From Fibrobacter succinogenes (GTDB lineage Bacteria; Fibrobacterota; Fibrobacteria; Fibrobacterales; Fibrobacteraceae): 64,000 nt of DNA. Positions within the stretch are counted from its first letter, which is position 1; each line of letters starts with the position of its first letter. The notes below the pieces were generated by a model. It made no database searches. It saw nothing but the letters and a program-made list of their open reading frames with translations, and was not told where the DNA came from. Below are positions 21,608 to 38,414 of this stretch, in pieces. The DNA lies in contig NZ_CACZDK010000007.1 of NCBI RefSeq assembly GCF_902779965.1, forward strand, positions 62,001-126,000. The letters run 5' to 3'. A program made the position numbers and the translations under genes.

Positions 21608-22255
21608 ATGATAAAAAGAATTTTCTCCAGCGCTATTATTTCGTTAGTTTTCGCATCGCAAGCCAACGCTTGGGATATGGGTACATATGTCGAAAACGCT
21701 CAAGCCGGAGAAGGCATCAAAACGGATTCAACGTGGAAAAAAAGCGAAACACAGACTGCAAAAAAAGATTTGAGCATGCAAACGGGCTTTCAAGAAGACA
21801 AAGTCAAGCATCATAGCATTTCATTTACATACGGAATACTCACACTTAGCGACTTTGCCGCAATGCACATTTCTGCATTCACAGAACTTTTCTCTTTAGG
21901 TCATGAAAAACTTCCCGTATCCATGTATGGAGCTTATTCAATAAATTATGGTTATAAGTTCAATGAAGTCGTAGAAACAGGCTTAATTTTCAATTACGCG
22001 CATCCTTTTAAAAAAGGCTCCTTTTACACAATCATGCCTAAAATCAAATTAAATTGCAACTATGAAGGTTATGTCAACCCGTTCGTAGAACTAAATGCAG
22101 GAATCATTTTTTCTGATTTTTTACCAGATATTTTTCCGGCATTTCACATCACATTTATAGGAATCGAAATTGGTCGAACATTCCCGATTACTCTTGGCTT
22201 ACTCGGTTTTGGACAACAAGGCGTTGCATACGCCGGTTTAGGATACAGATTCTAG
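21608..22255 (+). CDS. Secreted or outer-membrane protein, function unknown
   Basis: This encodes 215 residues with a cleavable signal peptide (MIKRIFSSAIISLVFASQANA). The mature protein has an N-terminal Lys/Gln-rich segment and then alternating strands rich in aromatic residues and glycine, ending GVAYAGLGYRF, an outer-membrane-barrel-like C-terminal phenylalanine. It converges on the ahbA/B-like gene with only 4 bases between the stops. Family unknown. Confidence 0.6.
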   Translation: MIKRIFSSAIISLVFASQANAWDMGTYVENAQAGEGIKTDSTWKKSETQTAKKDLSMQTGFQEDKVKHHSISFTYGILTLSDFAAMHISAFTELFSLGHEKLPVSMYGAYSINYGYKFNEVVETGLIFNYAHPFKKGSFYTIMPKIKLNCNYEGYVNPFVELNAGIIFSDFLPDIFPAFHITFIGIEIGRTFPITLGLLGFGQQGVAYAGLGYRF

Positions 22256-33209: not shown

Positions 33210-33845
33210 TCATTTTTCATCATATCGACTTGTTTCGCTATTGATTCGATACAGCAGTATCGCGCAGAACATCGGCATCACGTACCCGATATACAATGAA
33301 ACACCTGGCTTAGAAACTAAAAGATTGTAAAGCCCATGGACCGTCACGGAAAGCGACAACACACCCGCAATACCCGCAAGCGAAAAAGCCTTGTAATTTT
33401 TCAGCAGTTGCATACCCTTAGCCAACGCCACCAAAGTCACGATATGCATCACGCCCACAGCCGCGCCGCGCACCAACACATTCGCCAATTGCGGAGCACC
33501 CGATGATAAGATGAAGCAGCAATTTTCAAACGTCGCAAATCCGGCCCCAACACCAACAGCACACAACTGGGTATCGTCATCTGATGGATTGAACACGTAA
33601 ACGCAAAACAACATTGACAGAAGCTTCATGCACTCTTCTATCATCGGAGAAAGGAAAATAGAGGTATCCTCGGCCGTAAAACCGGATATCAATTGAATAA
33701 ACCCAGAAATATACGCCGACAAGATGCAAACCAACATGCCCGCAAGGAACGAAATCGTCGAACAGCGTGCGCTCCCCCTCGTGAAAAGCAGCGTAATTGC
33801 AAGCGGCACCGCGATGCAAATCAGAACATTTTCAGCATAAATCAT
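33210..33845 (-). CDS. PrsW-like membrane protease
   Basis: This 211-residue polytopic protein has about seven helices. The motifs SPMIEECMKLL, GAGFATFENCCF and VTVHGLYNLL carry the paired Glu, the Glu-Asn and the His expected of the PrsW family, intramembrane proteases that cut anti-sigma factors. The ATG at 33845 is preferred to a TTG at 33851; either start lies inside the end of the upstream membrane protein gene. It is third in the run sigma factor, membrane protein, PrsW-like protein. In Bacillus PrsW triggers sigma-W release by cutting RsiW; a similar role here is inferred. Confidence 0.75.
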   Translation of the reverse strand: MIYAENVLICIAVPLAITLLFTRGSARCSTISFLAGMLVCILSAYISGFIQLISGFTAEDTSIFLSPMIEECMKLLSMLFCVYVFNPSDDDTQLCAVGVGAGFATFENCCFILSSGAPQLANVLVRGAAVGVMHIVTLVALAKGMQLLKNYKAFSLAGIAGVLSLSVTVHGLYNLLVSKPGVSLYIGYVMPMFCAILLYRINSETSRYDEK

Positions 33846-34605
33846 TGGCAAGTTCCCTTTTCATCGACACATACATCAACGGTAACACCAGAACATTTGA
33901 AGAAAAAGCCAAATAATAATAGACGCCAGAAGTCAAAAACATCGAAAGTTCCGTCCACAAAAAGAACGTCAATGTCATAAAGTAATCCTTACTCCGAAAA
34001 CTTTTAACCCCAAGCCAAGCCATCAAAGCAAACATCACCACAAAAAAAGCCACTTTAATAGACTCAAACAAAAAACCTTTCACATAAAGCAAAGGAATTT
34101 GCAAGATCAAAACAGAAACACCCATCACCGCCGCAAGCCACAGCTCCTTCCGAGCCAACACTCCCCTACTCCGCATTCCACGAATCAAGAGCCACAAAAA
34201 ATAGATGTACGGAATCCCAAACAAAACATCCTGGAGCCATTCGCCAGACCACGCGATCCACAACGCAATATTCACGCCGATAAAAAGAATCGCAAAAACA
34301 ATCTCCCCAAAAATCTTTTTTTTGTCCTTCAGCACCACATCCAGCCCTGCCGACAAAAGCAGAATCATAGCGCACTCCCCTATTTCATTAGCCGCAATCG
34401 GCATGCGCGTATCCGGTTTTAAAACATCATAAGCAATCCAATACATATTGCTCAAAAGAAAACTGGTCATCGCCAACATAAAAAAGAACGGAAGAAACAC
34501 ATTTTTTCCGTTATCCATCAACCGGACGGTTTTTGCAATAATAACAACTAAAACAATTGACTGTAAAATGGTCGTTATTATACCAAACAGAGTCAATCCA
34601 CTCAT
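33832..34605 (-). CDS. Polytopic membrane protein between the sigma factor and PrsW
   Basis: This 257-residue protein has about seven transmembrane helices and short loops, with no soluble domain. It starts 1 base after the sigma factor gene, with GGAGAAGG before the ATG, and overlaps the PrsW-like gene. No family is recognised. Its position is where an anti-sigma factor would be expected, but the usual soluble zinc-finger or ZAS domain is absent; if it binds the sigma factor it does so with loops or with a new type of domain. Confidence 0.6.
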   Translation of the reverse strand: MSGLTLFGIITTILQSIVLVVIIAKTVRLMDNGKNVFLPFFFMLAMTSFLLSNMYWIAYDVLKPDTRMPIAANEIGECAMILLLSAGLDVVLKDKKKIFGEIVFAILFIGVNIALWIAWSGEWLQDVLFGIPYIYFLWLLIRGMRSRGVLARKELWLAAVMGVSVLILQIPLLYVKGFLFESIKVAFFVVMFALMAWLGVKSFRSKDYFMTLTFFLWTELSMFLTSGVYYYLAFSSNVLVLPLMYVSMKRELANDLC

Positions 34606-34606
34606 T

Positions 34607-35203
34607 TTAGCCTTCTCCAGCTAAATGCGAATCGCCCATCCGTTCATACGCAATACGCAGAGCCTCTTTCCCCCTCGCCAAAATATTGTACGTCTGCTTT
34701 ATGCTTTTCTTTATGATTCTGCTAATCTGCTCAGGCTTCATGTTCTCGAAATACAAAAGGAATAACGCATTCCTGTAATCGGCATCGATAGACTTCATCG
34801 CACGATACACTTGCGAATCCGTCTCATTTTGCAAAAGCATCCCAATCGGGTGAGAAGCAGCATCAGCTTCGACATTGTTCAAAAAATCACTCGCAGAAGA
34901 AACAAACTTGACCTTATTTTTCCTTAGATAAATCAGCGCCTGATTCTTGGCAACCGCAAAAAGCCAAGTTTTGAACGACGCACCGTTTTTTTCCTTATAC
35001 TTAGCCGTGCCAGAAGCCAAAATGGCAAATGTGTCCATCATCAGCTCTTCGGCGACATCAACATTTTGAACGAAACCATACAGGAACAAAATAAGGCTGT
35101 CCCTATACTTATCAAAAATGACCTCAAGAGCATCTTGAGCATCCTGATTCAAAAAACGGACAAACAGCTGTCCATCAATATCCGGCATCTCCCATTTTCC
35201 CAT
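34607..35203 (-). CDS. ECF-type RNA polymerase sigma factor
   Basis: This 198-residue protein has a region 2 (ALEVIFDKYRDSLILFLYGF, TWLFAVAKNQALIYLRKNK) and a C-terminal helix-turn-helix region 4 (DADYRNALFLLYFENMKPEQ, SIKQTYNILARGKEALR). It lacks regions 1 and 3, as ECF factors do. The ATG at 35203 is chosen over a TTG at 35206. It heads an operon with a polytopic membrane protein and a PrsW-like protease, and it faces, across 325 bases, the cassettes that share the repeated upstream element. Whether it reads that element is open. Confidence 0.85.
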   Translation of the reverse strand: MGKWEMPDIDGQLFVRFLNQDAQDALEVIFDKYRDSLILFLYGFVQNVDVAEELMMDTFAILASGTAKYKEKNGASFKTWLFAVAKNQALIYLRKNKVKFVSSASDFLNNVEADAASHPIGMLLQNETDSQVYRAMKSIDADYRNALFLLYFENMKPEQISRIIKKSIKQTYNILARGKEALRIAYERMGDSHLAGEG

Positions 35204-35297: not shown

Positions 35298-35355
35298 GTA
35301 AATAAAAATTTATAATAAAATTTTGAGTAAAAACCAGCTTTCTCGCAATTAATAA
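35298..35355 (+). promoter_or_regulatory. Cassette upstream element, copy A
   Basis: GTAAAT at 35298, GAGTAA at 35325 and GCAATTAAT at 35345: spacings 27 and 20. No gene follows, only a short non-coding stretch and a terminator. Confidence 0.7.
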
Positions 35356-35429
35356 TTTGAAAATTAAAAAACGTTCCTATAGATATTTACACCTCAATAG
35401 ACGCTTGGGATTTTATCCCAGGCGTTTTC
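35356..35429 (+). ncRNA. Candidate small RNA or emptied cassette
   Basis: The element copy A is followed by about 45 bases without any ATG frame and then a strong hairpin terminator (ACGCTTGGGAT / ATCCCAGGCGT at 35401-35425, T run). The transcript would be about 70 nucleotides. It could be a small RNA under the same control as the neighbours, or the residue of a cassette whose gene was lost. Confidence 0.35.
35401..35429 (+). terminator. Rho-independent terminator of cassette A
   Basis: 11 bp stem, three-base loop, TTTTC tail. Its stem sequence resembles the terminator at 37038. Confidence 0.8.
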
Positions 35430-35444
35430 TTGCATTTAAGCAAA

Positions 35445-35502
35445 TACAATATTTATTTACAATAAAAGATCGAGTAAAAAAACTAAATTATGCAATTAAT
35501 TA
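35445..35502 (+). promoter_or_regulatory. Cassette upstream element, copy B
   Basis: GAGTAA at 35472 and GCAATTAAT at 35492 (spacing 20); the 5' box is degenerate (TACAAT at 35445, spacing 27). It lies 37 bases before the ATG of the 98-residue gene. Confidence 0.65.
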
Positions 35503-35528
35503 AAAAATGAATATTTTAGGAGGAAAAC

Positions 35529-35825
35529 ATGAAATACTCAAAAGAAGACGCCTTAAAAGAAATAAAACGACGAGCCGGAATCATCCGACAAAAGCATGAC
35601 CGAAAGGTAACGAACATTTTGACGACTACAGCAGGCTTTACCCTAATCGCACTTTTTGCCGTAATCGGCATTTTCTCGGGTTCAGCGATTTCCGCAACGC
35701 CATCCGCATACGGAGCGTTTATTATTTCTGCGGAATCCGGCGGATACGTACTGACCGCAGTTCTGGGATTTGTTTTGGGCATCGTGGTGACTCTTCTTGT
35801 CAAACAATTGAAGAAGAAAAAATAA
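35529..35825 (+). CDS. 98-residue two-helix membrane protein
   Basis: A charged N-terminal segment (MKYSKEDALKEIKRRAG) leads to two hydrophobic helices (about 28-50 and 70-92) and a Lys-rich end. TAGGAGG is 6 bases before the ATG, a near-perfect ribosome site. It has upstream element copy B and its own terminator (35898-35930), so it is a stand-alone cassette. It looks like a small stress or envelope protein; no family recognised. Confidence 0.65.
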   Translation: MKYSKEDALKEIKRRAGIIRQKHDRKVTNILTTTAGFTLIALFAVIGIFSGSAISATPSAYGAFIISAESGGYVLTAVLGFVLGIVVTLLVKQLKKKK

Positions 35826-35897
35826 CTCAAGCCAACTTGCATCAACAACCTTTATCGTTTAATAAAACCGAAACTCGGTTTCAGGGTTAAAGAATTT

Positions 35898-35930
35898 ATG
35901 CTGAGATCAATCAAAATCCAGCATTTTTTA
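35898..35930 (+). terminator. Rho-independent terminator of cassette B
   Basis: ATGCTG (plus GAT) / (ATC) CAGCAT stem with an eight-base loop, then six T. Confidence 0.75.
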
Positions 35931-35976
35931 GTGTCTATTTTTTATAAAATTGCTTTTAAAGCAAGCCAGCTATTTC

Positions 35977-36034
35977 GTAAACAAAAATTTCAAATAAAAT
36001 AAAGAGTAAAAACAAGCATTCCTGCAATTAATAA
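35977..36034 (+). promoter_or_regulatory. Cassette upstream element, copy C
   Basis: GTAAAC at 35977, GAGTAA at 36004, GCAATTAAT at 36024: spacings 27 and 20, as in copies A and D. The bases between also resemble copy A (AAAAACAAGCATTCCT against AAAAACCAGCTTTCTC). Confidence 0.7.
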
Positions 36035-36085
36035 AATGAAGAGCCAAAAGCCTGATAAACACACACAAACAATAGGAGAAATTAA

Positions 36086-36997
36086 ATGCAAGAAGTTACA
36101 AATTGCGGCGAATGGATTGTTTATATCGTTACAGATAACTTTTCAAAAAATATAGAACTCGCTTTTGCAAAATTAAACAGCGTTGATAACGGAATCACCT
36201 ATAAACCGATAGCACAGTTAGCAACACAGCTTGTCGCAGGCGACAACTATACTGTTCTTGCCGAAAAGTCTTCCGTTTGGGAGCCACACGTCAAAAAGAA
36301 TGTTCTTATAACATTCTACGCAAAATTCGACGCAAAAGAACCGAACGACATTCAAATATTCACGATCGCTCCGCTTAAAGCAGGACAATCAACCGTAGCT
36401 ATTCCTAACGGTCAGTTAATCAACATTTCAAGACTCATTCCAGTAGTCGACAATGTCCAAGAAGCTCTTGGAGAATGGAAGATCGATGTTAAAACTAAAG
36501 ACTGGCCTACAGACGTAGACAAAGCTATTGAGCAACTGAACCACCAATATGGAGCAGCCTACAAGCCCATCGCCTATCTTGGTGAACAGCTTGTCCACGG
36601 ACACAACTACGCCATTCTCGCTGAATTTACCGTTGTACGCATCTGCCCAAGCGTCAGTATAGTTCTTATAATTTTCAATGTTAACGACGGAAAAATCCAA
36701 ATCGTTTCTATCGAAAATATTATCGAAAGCTACGGATTTGTAAGACCGGGCAGCATAATAATCGCCCCAACAACAAATATTCCTGATGAAGTCATGAACG
36801 AATTCAACTCCGTTATGGAACACTTTGTGGGTTCGGACGTCAAGCCTTTCGCATACCTTGGAGATCAAGTTGTATCAGGCATCGACCGTTTCCTCGCTGC
36901 CGAAGTAACGGCTGTACATCCAGGCGCAAAGCCAAGGATTGCCTTGGTCGTTATAAACGCAAAGGATAAATCAATCCAGTTTAAATATATTCTTTAG
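36086..36997 (+). CDS. Triple cystatin-like repeat protein
   Basis: This 303-residue protein is made of three similar units of about 100 residues. Each has a Lys-Pro-(Ile/Phe)-Ala stretch followed by the cystatin signature QxVxG: QLVAG at 48-52, QLVHG at 168-172, QVVSG at 261-265, and then a hydrophobic strand pair. Cystatins inhibit papain-type cysteine proteases by inserting this loop in the active site. There is no signal peptide, so it would act in the cytoplasm or after lysis. It is preceded by element copy C and TAGGAG and followed by its own terminator. The fold call is by motif; the target protease is unknown, though a C39/papain-fold peptidase is encoded at 26920. Confidence 0.65.
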   Translation: MQEVTNCGEWIVYIVTDNFSKNIELAFAKLNSVDNGITYKPIAQLATQLVAGDNYTVLAEKSSVWEPHVKKNVLITFYAKFDAKEPNDIQIFTIAPLKAGQSTVAIPNGQLINISRLIPVVDNVQEALGEWKIDVKTKDWPTDVDKAIEQLNHQYGAAYKPIAYLGEQLVHGHNYAILAEFTVVRICPSVSIVLIIFNVNDGKIQIVSIENIIESYGFVRPGSIIIAPTTNIPDEVMNEFNSVMEHFVGSDVKPFAYLGDQVVSGIDRFLAAEVTAVHPGAKPRIALVVINAKDKSIQFKYIL

Positions 36998-37037
36998 AAC
37001 CTAACCATAGAACCACTCAATTAAACTACACCACAAA

Positions 37038-37069
37038 ACGCTCAGGATTTAATTCTGGGCGTTTTTATT
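37038..37069 (+). terminator. Rho-independent terminator of the cystatin cassette
   Basis: ACGCTCAGGA / TTCTGGGCGT stem (with G-T pairs) and a TTTTT run. Similar in sequence to the cassette A terminator. Confidence 0.8.
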
Positions 37070-37138
37070 TTGCGTTTATTTTCATTTGCAATAAAACATC
37101 ACAAAATCTTATTTAAAAAGATAAAAAAATCACATAAC

Positions 37139-37196
37139 GTAAATAATAATTTTAAATAAATTAATGAGTAATTGTAAAAAAACAAGCAATTAATTA
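37139..37196 (+). promoter_or_regulatory. Cassette upstream element, copy D
   Basis: GTAAAT at 37139, GAGTAA at 37166, GCAATTAAT at 37186: spacings 27 and 20. It lies 155 bases before the PI-PLC start, leaving a long AT-rich leader. With the terminator at 37038 it fills most of the 341-base gap. Confidence 0.7.
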
Positions 37197-37340
37197 TATG
37201 AATAACAAGAGAAAATTAAGTTATTCATTATTACAAAAAAAGTGTAATGACTATTGATTATTTTCCCTTAAGATTCAAGACAATTTCAAATAAAATAATT
37301 TTAAATTCACAATATAACAAAACAGGAGACCAATTAGAAC

Positions 37341-38414
37341 ATGGCAGATCTAGAAACAAATTCTTTAGACGATTCGCATGTCGTTCATTCAAAGCTAAAC
37401 GCGAAAAGCAATATCAAATGTGCAGATGGCCCACGTCCAGCAGGCTATTGTCATGATGGAAATATCGATCTAGAAAAGACAAATTGGATGTCAAAACTCA
37501 ACAACAATTTTCGAATGAGTGATTTGTCCCTTCCGGGCACGCACGACACGATGGCTTTTTATGGTGGCGATGCCGTTCAATGTCAATCAGTCAATTTATT
37601 GGAACAACTAAATTCAGGCATCCGCGTATTAGACATTCGCTGTCGCCATATTGCAGATATTTTCGCAATCCACCATGGAGTAGTTTTTCAGAACGCTTAT
37701 TTTGGAGATGTTCTCGACACCGTTCAGGAATTTCTAGAAACGAATCCTTCTGAAACAATTTTCATGCGAATACAAAAAGAGCATAACGAAGAAAAAGTAA
37801 CTCGTTCATTTGAGGATACATTTAAAATTGCTTATTGGGAACCTCGTTCTAATTTATTCTGGAATCCGAATAAAAGTACTAATAAAACAAATCCCAAATT
37901 GTCCGAAACAAGAGGTAAAATCGTAGTCCTTCAAAAATTCGATGCCAAAGGCACCTACGGAGTTCGTTGGCCAGACAATTTCGAAATACAGGATGAATAT
38001 CACTTAAGCACCAATTGGGATTTGTATGATAAATGGACAAAAGTCAAGGATCATCTGACAAACGCAAATAATTCAGATCCATCTAATCGAAAAACATTCA
38101 TCAATTTTCTTTCTGGATCGGGAGGATCATTTCCTTATTTTGTAGCCAGTGGTCAATCAAGTCCTGGAACAAACGCACCTCGACTTCTTACAGGTCGAAC
38201 AACCCCAGGATGGAAAAACAGTTGGGTCGATTTTCCAAGAATCGGCTGTGTCAAAATAGTATTCACAGTATGCTCTATAGCGTTTGAAGGAACAAACATT
38301 CTTTCGGCAGAAAGAATAGGAAAAGGGAAAGAATTCAAAAAATATGTCGGAATGATAATGGCCGATTTCCCAGGAAAAGACCTTATCGAAGGCATAATAA
38401 GCCTTAATTTTTAG
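37341..38414 (+). CDS. Phosphatidylinositol-specific phospholipase C-like protein
   Basis: This 357-residue protein has the X-domain of bacterial PI-PLC: LPGTHDTMAF with His68 and FAIHHGVVFQNAYFGDVL with His111/His112, the two catalytic histidine sites, and VLDIRCR between. Such enzymes cleave phosphatidylinositol or related lipids to a cyclic inositol phosphate. Unlike secreted PI-PLCs it has no signal peptide; the first 45 residues are polar. It has CAGGAG before the start, element copy D upstream and a terminator at 38457. The target lipid in this organism is unclear. Confidence 0.78.
   Translation: MADLETNSLDDSHVVHSKLNAKSNIKCADGPRPAGYCHDGNIDLEKTNWMSKLNNNFRMSDLSLPGTHDTMAFYGGDAVQCQSVNLLEQLNSGIRVLDIRCRHIADIFAIHHGVVFQNAYFGDVLDTVQEFLETNPSETIFMRIQKEHNEEKVTRSFEDTFKIAYWEPRSNLFWNPNKSTNKTNPKLSETRGKIVVLQKFDAKGTYGVRWPDNFEIQDEYHLSTNWDLYDKWTKVKDHLTNANNSDPSNRKTFINFLSGSGGSFPYFVASGQSSPGTNAPRLLTGRTTPGWKNSWVDFPRIGCVKIVFTVCSIAFEGTNILSAERIGKGKEFKKYVGMIMADFPGKDLIEGIISLNF

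Follow-up and report, generated by a model that had tools for sequence, protein, structure and literature searches.

Introduction

Extracytoplasmic function (ECF) sigma factors that are released at the membrane and act on local promoters are known, as is the PrsW-dependent release of SigW. In the SigW-RsiW-PrsW system of Bacillus subtilis, the ECF sigma factor is freed by regulated intramembrane proteolysis started by PrsW. Here, we analyzed a stretch of 64,000 nucleotides from Fibrobacter succinogenes (contig NZ_CACZDK010000007.1, positions 62,001 to 126,000; "the window"), in which four copies of a promoter-like element, A to D, lie beside a gene for an ECF sigma factor (SIG) that is accompanied by genes for a PrsW-family protease and two membrane proteins, MEM260 and SMALL. 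This cassette resembles the B. subtilis system in having a PrsW-family gene with all motifs. Unlike that system, it has no RsiW-like protein and instead encodes a 98-residue two-helix protein (SMALL) and an 8-9-helix protein (MEM260), its promoter boxes are not of the AAC/CGT type, and its PrsW scores 33.7 bits against a cut-off of 225 for the equivalog model NF033739, which makes it a relative rather than a B. subtilis-type equivalog.

Three further systems bear comparison. In the CnrYXH system of Cupriavidus, the small class II anti-sigma factor CnrY wraps its ECF sigma factor with two short helices (PMC7406223). SMALL is comparable in build to CnrY, but searches of PDB and Pfam found no sequence similarity between the two. 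To our knowledge, the CnrYXH system is without a PrsW. Enterobacterial sigmaE is an ECF sigma factor that also drives short, terminator-capped regulatory RNAs, MicA and RybB. An ECF sigma factor and a short terminator-capped RNA occur together here as well; in this case, however, the RNA, from copy A, is a prediction without an Rfam match, and its motif ACACCUC resembles the anti-Shine-Dalgarno core. The sigmaI factors of cellulolytic clostridia belong to a different sigma family and have a different anti-sigma architecture from the cassette's. They are described as alternative sigma factors of fiber-degrading bacteria with local and distant targets, which is the respect in which they resemble the present case (PMC6056542, PMC4711584).

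Among the open-licence literature, we found no publication on an ECF system of Fibrobacter or on PrsW in connection with the rumen, and the cassette described here is apparently undescribed.

Results

Four elements with a fixed gap between two boxes

The elements all lie on the forward strand (window coordinates):

Element A, 35298..35353 (+): GTAAAT box at 35298-35303, -35-like GAGTAA at 35325-35330, -10-like GCAATTAAT at 35345-35353; no gene downstream.
Element B, 35472..35500 (+): -35-like box at 35472, -10-like GCAATTAAT at 35492-35500; ATG of SMALL 28 nt downstream.
Element C, 35977..36032 (+): GTAAAC box at 35977, -35-like GAGTAA at 36004, -10-like GCAATTAAT at 36024-36032; ATG of a cystatin-like gene 53 nt downstream.
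Element D, 37139..37194 (+): GTAAAT box at 37139, -35-like GAGTAA at 37166, -10-like GCAATTAAT at 37186-37194; ATG of a phosphatidylinositol-specific phospholipase C (PI-PLC)-like gene 146 nt downstream.

GAGTAA and GCAATTAAT are exact in all four copies and stand 14 nt apart (20 nt start to start). The four-copy alignment reads GTAAAt...ATTT..AATAAA...tGAGTAAaaa-gap-GCAATTAAT; what the copies share is the boxes and the A/T stretch, and the sequence of the gap varies freely. An earlier note on this DNA had claimed GTAAAT-27-GAGTAA-20 for copies A, C, and D, which is exact in A and D but one base off in C (GTAAAC). Its finding of the last two boxes in B, which is without a GTAAAT box, was exact, and the distances of 37, 62, and 155 bases that it gave from element to start codon are correct if counted from the start of GCAATTAAT.

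In the window, copies A to D are the only matches to GAGTAA-14-GCAATTAAT with fewer than three mismatches. The pattern GAGTAA-14-GCAATTAA has four exact matches in the 4.1-Mb genome, all at this locus, and three matches with one mismatch, and when the 925 nt of local intergenic DNA were shuffled 3,000 times with dinucleotides preserved, the exact pattern never arose. The earlier note had named a high frequency of the pattern in AT-rich intergenic DNA as a refuting condition; this was checked and did not refute its reading. With a matrix built without the window copies, A to D scored 40.8 to 42.5. Random sequence generated to resemble the window scored at most 12.1 over 4 Mb, and a random 1 Mb matched in composition to the local intergenic DNA had a single position that reached 25. 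One further matrix match, at window position 22019, was rejected as lying inside coding sequence and lacking the boxes. Upstream of the sigma gene, the minus strand holds no proper copy (best score, 2.8); the earlier note had seen a weak, differently spaced resemblance there.

The element travels with the sigma gene

The cassette consists of the following genes:

SIG, 34607..35203 (-): ECF sigma factor (TIGR02937, 65.8 bits; cut-off, 42.9) whose only domains are sigma2 and sigma4; oriented away from the array of elements.
MEM260, 33832..34605 (-): 257-residue membrane protein with 8-9 helices; without a Pfam family or a match to a PDB fold; candidate sensor.
PrsW, 33210..33845 (-): PrsW-family intramembrane protease (PF13367, 51.1 bits; cut-off, 23.5).
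SMALL, 35529..35825 (+): 98-residue two-helix membrane protein after element B; no Pfam family; candidate anti-sigma factor.

In SIG, PF04542 matches at residues 31-98 and PF08281 at 132-183 (E 7e-5, under the gathering score), with a linker of less than 50 residues; sigma2 and sigma4 domains alone with a short linker place it among the ECF (group IV) factors. Homologues were found in Fibrobacter assemblies and in Lachnospiraceae/Clostridiales, nearly all from ruminant forestomach according to the assembly titles, and those of Firmicutes have 37-57% sigma identity. When open reading frames were clustered across the loci, SIG, MEM260, PrsW, and SMALL were each present in 36-43 loci and the next family in six; besides SIG, no further DNA-binding protein was common to the loci.

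We scanned these cassette loci (handles L; genomes, G) with the window-derived pattern, allowing one mismatch, and obtained 53 distinct sites with the consensus TGAGTAAAA-N11-TGCWATTAA. The general consensus in Firmicutes and Fibrobacter is TGAGTAAAA-N11-TGCAATTAA, found upstream of SMALL and of variable cargo genes. A gap control, not selected in this way, gave 53 sites in 31 of 40 cassette loci for a gap of 14 nt and 8 sites in 8 loci for 13 nt, versus 0-2 sites for every other gap from 6 to 24 nt. A site stands upstream of 29 of the 44 SMALL copies (27 without mismatch), and sites often precede large cargo genes in the relatives' loci; the regions upstream of MEM260 and PrsW, which served as internal controls, contain no strong site.

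The sigma gene is present in 12 of 61 Fibrobacter genomes. At E ≤ 1e-3, a model of Fibrobacter sites, whose training sites include some of the genomes tested, detected sites in all 12 sigma-bearing genomes versus 1 of the 49 others. A model built from Firmicutes sites only ranked A, C, B, and D first to fourth in the window; in the whole genome, A and C took ranks 1 and 2, B was fifth, and D was weak. Across the genus, this model found near-full-length matches in 10 of the 12 sigma-bearing genomes and, among the others, in G062 only. In G022 and G083, which lack sigma, the partial model matches are weak and their -10 is imperfect.

Because the boxes accompany the sigma gene in both phyla and hardly occur without it in Fibrobacter genomes, and because the gap is fixed and the same SMALL gene lies downstream in most loci, the four elements are very probably promoters read by RNA polymerase carrying the neighboring ECF sigma factor. 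The same co-occurrence, gap, and linkage support the earlier note, which had proposed this possibility. The predicted -35 is TGAGTAAAA and the predicted -10 is TGCAATTAA(T), with 14 nt, sometimes 13, between GAGTAA and GCAATTAA. TGAGTAA and CAATTAA are 22 nt apart start to start, a distance suitable for an ECF holoenzyme.

Membrane partners and release of the sigma factor

SMALL and MEM260 belong to no Pfam family and are not named in NCBIfam. One or the other is always near the sigma gene, and neither has a known anti-sigma domain. In the window, the SIG, MEM260, and PrsW genes are tightly spaced and all read away from the array. The order sigma-MEM260-PrsW is followed by SMALL, which is divergent from sigma in Fibrobacter and downstream in Firmicutes; a SMALL copy lies just upstream of sigma in L107, L111, and L112 and after PrsW in L120 and L123.

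The PrsW motifs EExxK and GxGFATFEN and two H are conserved in 38 homologues, and PF13367 together with EExxK, GxGFAxxEN, and the H motifs identifies the protein as a PrsW protease. MEM260 consists almost wholly of membrane helices and is confidently predicted as an 8-9-helix bundle (predicted local distance difference test [pLDDT] score, 90.8); against PDB, its model gave no fold match better than E 0.15. Invariant residues, among them P64, R67, P69, E74, W116, W119, and E122, lie near loops predicted, by the positive-inside rule, to face outwards. SMALL starts with a conserved basic N terminus, and a conserved YGS..L motif lies between its two helices.

From these conserved parts and their linkage, which were observed, we infer the interactions of the following most likely scheme. 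SMALL would hold the sigma factor at the membrane as an anti-sigma factor, an envelope signal would be sensed, perhaps by MEM260, and PrsW would cleave SMALL and so free the sigma factor. Free sigma would then transcribe SMALL, closing a shut-off loop, as well as the short terminated RNA from copy A and the cargo genes for a triple cystatin and a PI-PLC. The architecture and gene position of SMALL are compatible with a class II anti-sigma factor of the CnrY type, and we lean slightly toward SMALL as a minimal anti-sigma factor; the assignment of MEM260 as sensor is tentative.

The roles could also be distributed otherwise, with MEM260 as the membrane partner that holds sigma and SMALL as another target, for example, an envelope protein. 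MEM260 lies directly downstream of sigma in nearly all loci, which is the usual place of an anti-sigma gene, and the sigma promoter is at its most regular ahead of SMALL, which would suit a target. However, MEM260, being almost all membrane helices, has little cytoplasmic part with which to bind sigma. SMALL, for its part, has the conserved basic N terminus and, in L117, L124, and L125, lies between sigma and MEM260, directly after sigma and with overlapping ends, a position usual for anti-sigma genes. We regard this second distribution as somewhat doubtful; it concerns the mechanism only.

Evidence against the proposed promoters, and other explanations

Several observations weigh against reading the elements as promoters of a sigma factor held by SMALL. 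The elements were gathered with a window-derived pattern, and the shape of the consensus is therefore partly selected. The window's own sigma gene has no good site upstream; as regards positive autoregulation, a good site does precede the sigma gene in L094-L098 and L116, with a weaker one in L092, and these relatives speak in favor of the reading. G062 has three strong sites (L136, L137, and L138), which precede an adenosine-deaminase-like gene, a 312-residue protein, and a 130-residue protein, yet neither sigma nor SMALL was found in this incomplete assembly, which points to an orphan regulon or an assembly gap. Searches of PDB and Pfam matched SMALL to no known anti-sigma family. Finally, TGAGTAAAA and TGCAATTAA are without the older ECF hallmark of AAC at -35 and CGT at -10 (PMC8103513). 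This does not exclude ECF membership, because the defining features were later restricted to domains (PMC8103513).

A GTAAA box lies 26-28 nt upstream of GAGTAA in 19 of 37 Fibrobacter elements versus none of 23 Firmicutes elements. It is a real Fibrobacter feature that the sigma factor itself apparently does not need, and with the A/T-rich stretch before the -35, it is consistent with an UP element or with the site of a host-specific activator; for Fibrobacter, the "activator plus promoter" of the earlier note was apt. In type-2 Fibrobacter loci, a palindrome, AAGCCATGCTA TTAATGAA TAGCATGGCTT, covers the -10 (L092:7430-7480 and the matching place in L095, L096, and L097), and this looks like an added repressor operator.

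A third box at a fixed place in Fibrobacter means that something besides sigma may bind, and the palindrome of some type-2 loci points the same way. The elements might then serve as operators for some other DNA-binding regulator encoded elsewhere, and an ordinary housekeeping promoter would lie within or close to them. Against this, the distribution of the sites follows that of the sigma gene in both phyla, with hardly any sites in genomes that lack it; the loci have no other DNA-binding protein in common; and the gap is sigma-like and nearly invariant. We consider such a regulator improbable. It is less probable still that the copies are recent local duplications, alike by descent rather than by selection. 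Over 73 nt, copies A and C share 78% identity, but conservation among the copies is confined to the boxes and the A/T stretch, the gap being free. The same boxes also occur in Firmicutes at the sigma identities given above and, in other Fibrobacter genomes, ahead of genes that are not linked to the cassette. Cross-phylum conservation already refutes duplication as the full explanation, although duplication may be how the copies multiplied. That the elements are ordinary Fibrobacter housekeeping promoters, being A/T-rich and ahead of genes with ribosome-binding sites downstream, is the least credible of these explanations, given that the 4.1 Mb hold four exact copies, all here, and that only 1 of the 49 genus genomes without sigma has strong sites.

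A candidate short RNA after copy A

The stretch after element A, and its counterparts elsewhere, are as follows:

35354..35436 (+): predicted transcript of element A (candidate short RNA of about 75 nt), with ACACCTC at 35389 and the stem of an intrinsic terminator at about 35397-35427.
L089:7800-7901, L091:7560-7800, L093:7605-7812, and L146:9860-9960: matching stretches.

The terminator hairpin lies about 45 bases past the -10 of copy A (dG, -17.8). In the four other loci, too, the first element is followed by a gene-less, terminator-capped stretch, and ACACCTC stands just ahead of the terminator stem in all five Fibrobacter loci, the remaining sequence having diverged. CACCTC is the core of the 16S rRNA anti-Shine-Dalgarno. 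An Rfam search with the copy A stretch gave no match, and a genome-wide search for ACACCTC as an RNA family gave few matches and no excess over the control, with a pattern that missed the window's own copy. A further ACACCTC case, in L148, was rejected as a short RNA because it is a 3' untranslated region. Judged from sequence, copy A may well make a sigma-dependent regulatory RNA, a reading that we stop just short of favoring.

Cargo genes and the wider regulon

Downstream of SMALL, the window contains the following features:

36086..36997 (+): triple cystatin-like protein without an evident signal peptide; cargo gene after element C.
37033..37065 (+): intrinsic terminator downstream of the cystatin gene.
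37341..38414 (+): PI-PLC-X domain protein (PF00388, E 5e-15); cargo gene after element D.

These neighbors, the small membrane protein, and the ECF sigma gene reading away are as the earlier note had described them. The cystatin-like protein has three repeats with QLVAG, QLVHG, and QVVSG, which correspond to the QxVxG loop of cystatins; its Pfam match is weak and under the gathering score, and its model, of medium confidence (pLDDT 64.5), matches the fold of potato multicystatin 4lzi (E 1.3e-6). Cystatin-like proteins of this kind, with no evident signal peptide, occur repeatedly behind the same promoter (window, L093, L094, L100, and L145), both linked and unlinked to the cassette. The 5' leader of the PI-PLC gene (window 37195-37340) is unusually long and has two A/T-rich hairpins directly after element D.

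Strong sites also occur away from the cassette. One lies upstream of a triple-cystatin gene in G004 (L145). Another, in G006 (L133:2663-5755), is followed by a SMALL copy and then by a 331-residue protein rich in KYGYPCG repeats and by a radical-SAM/SPASM-TPR protein, a pair that looks like a repeat peptide precursor and its maturase under the same sigma factor. The element also accompanies a 130-residue protein with a weak DUF4114 match, away from the cassette, in four Fibrobacter genomes (G006, G019, G034, and G062):

L132:7336-7728, L134:5198-5590, L135:5632-6024, and L137:3133-3525: 130-residue protein.

On contig 11 of the window's own genome, a weak site (score, 6.9) precedes an adenosine-deaminase-like gene by about 33 nt, which makes this gene a possible regulon member only. 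In Lachnospiraceae (L107 and L113-L122), the element stands ahead of SMALL and of very large secreted proteins of about 750-2,400 residues that differ by strain.

History of the cassette

In a tree of concatenated sigma, MEM260, and PrsW, the 13 Fibrobacter cassettes form one group (Shimodaira-Hasegawa-like approximate likelihood ratio test [SH-aLRT], 100), which joins seven Clostridia (SH-aLRT, 99) inside Firmicutes; the tree was midpoint rooted, and the root position is an assumption. Because the Fibrobacter cassettes are nested among those of Firmicutes, the tree suggests transfer of the cassette from rumen Clostridia to Fibrobacter, and the cassette appears to have passed between unrelated rumen bacteria of cows and sheep. 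Contamination is unlikely because the cassettes sit on Fibrobacter contigs of up to 1.2 Mb. Presence in 12 of the 61 genus genomes also fits an accessory element. A search of phages, plasmids, and viral contigs with MEM260 found no mobile carrier.

Discussion

Taken as a whole, the cassette could represent a new class of membrane-signaling sigma system. Its parts would be a minimal two-helix anti-sigma factor, an 8-9-helix sensor gating PrsW, and a noncanonical promoter code that stayed intact when the cassette passed between Firmicutes and Fibrobacterota in the rumen; Fibrobacter would add a small RNA that depends on the sigma factor and carries a motif like the anti-Shine-Dalgarno. Together, these would switch on phospholipases and protease inhibitors directed at eukaryotic partners, either protozoa or the host. 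That all of these parts hold jointly is unlikely.

A sigma factor and promoters that have apparently traveled as a pair across phyla and can be recognized by sequence alone would allow a direct listing of what rumen bacteria switch on under one signal, and such a listing would include large secreted proteins, cystatin-like inhibitors, and phospholipases without a known role. In addition, two undescribed families of membrane proteins in the cassette can be tested for a role in sigma release, and the compact sigma-promoter pair may work in both Fibrobacter and Firmicutes.
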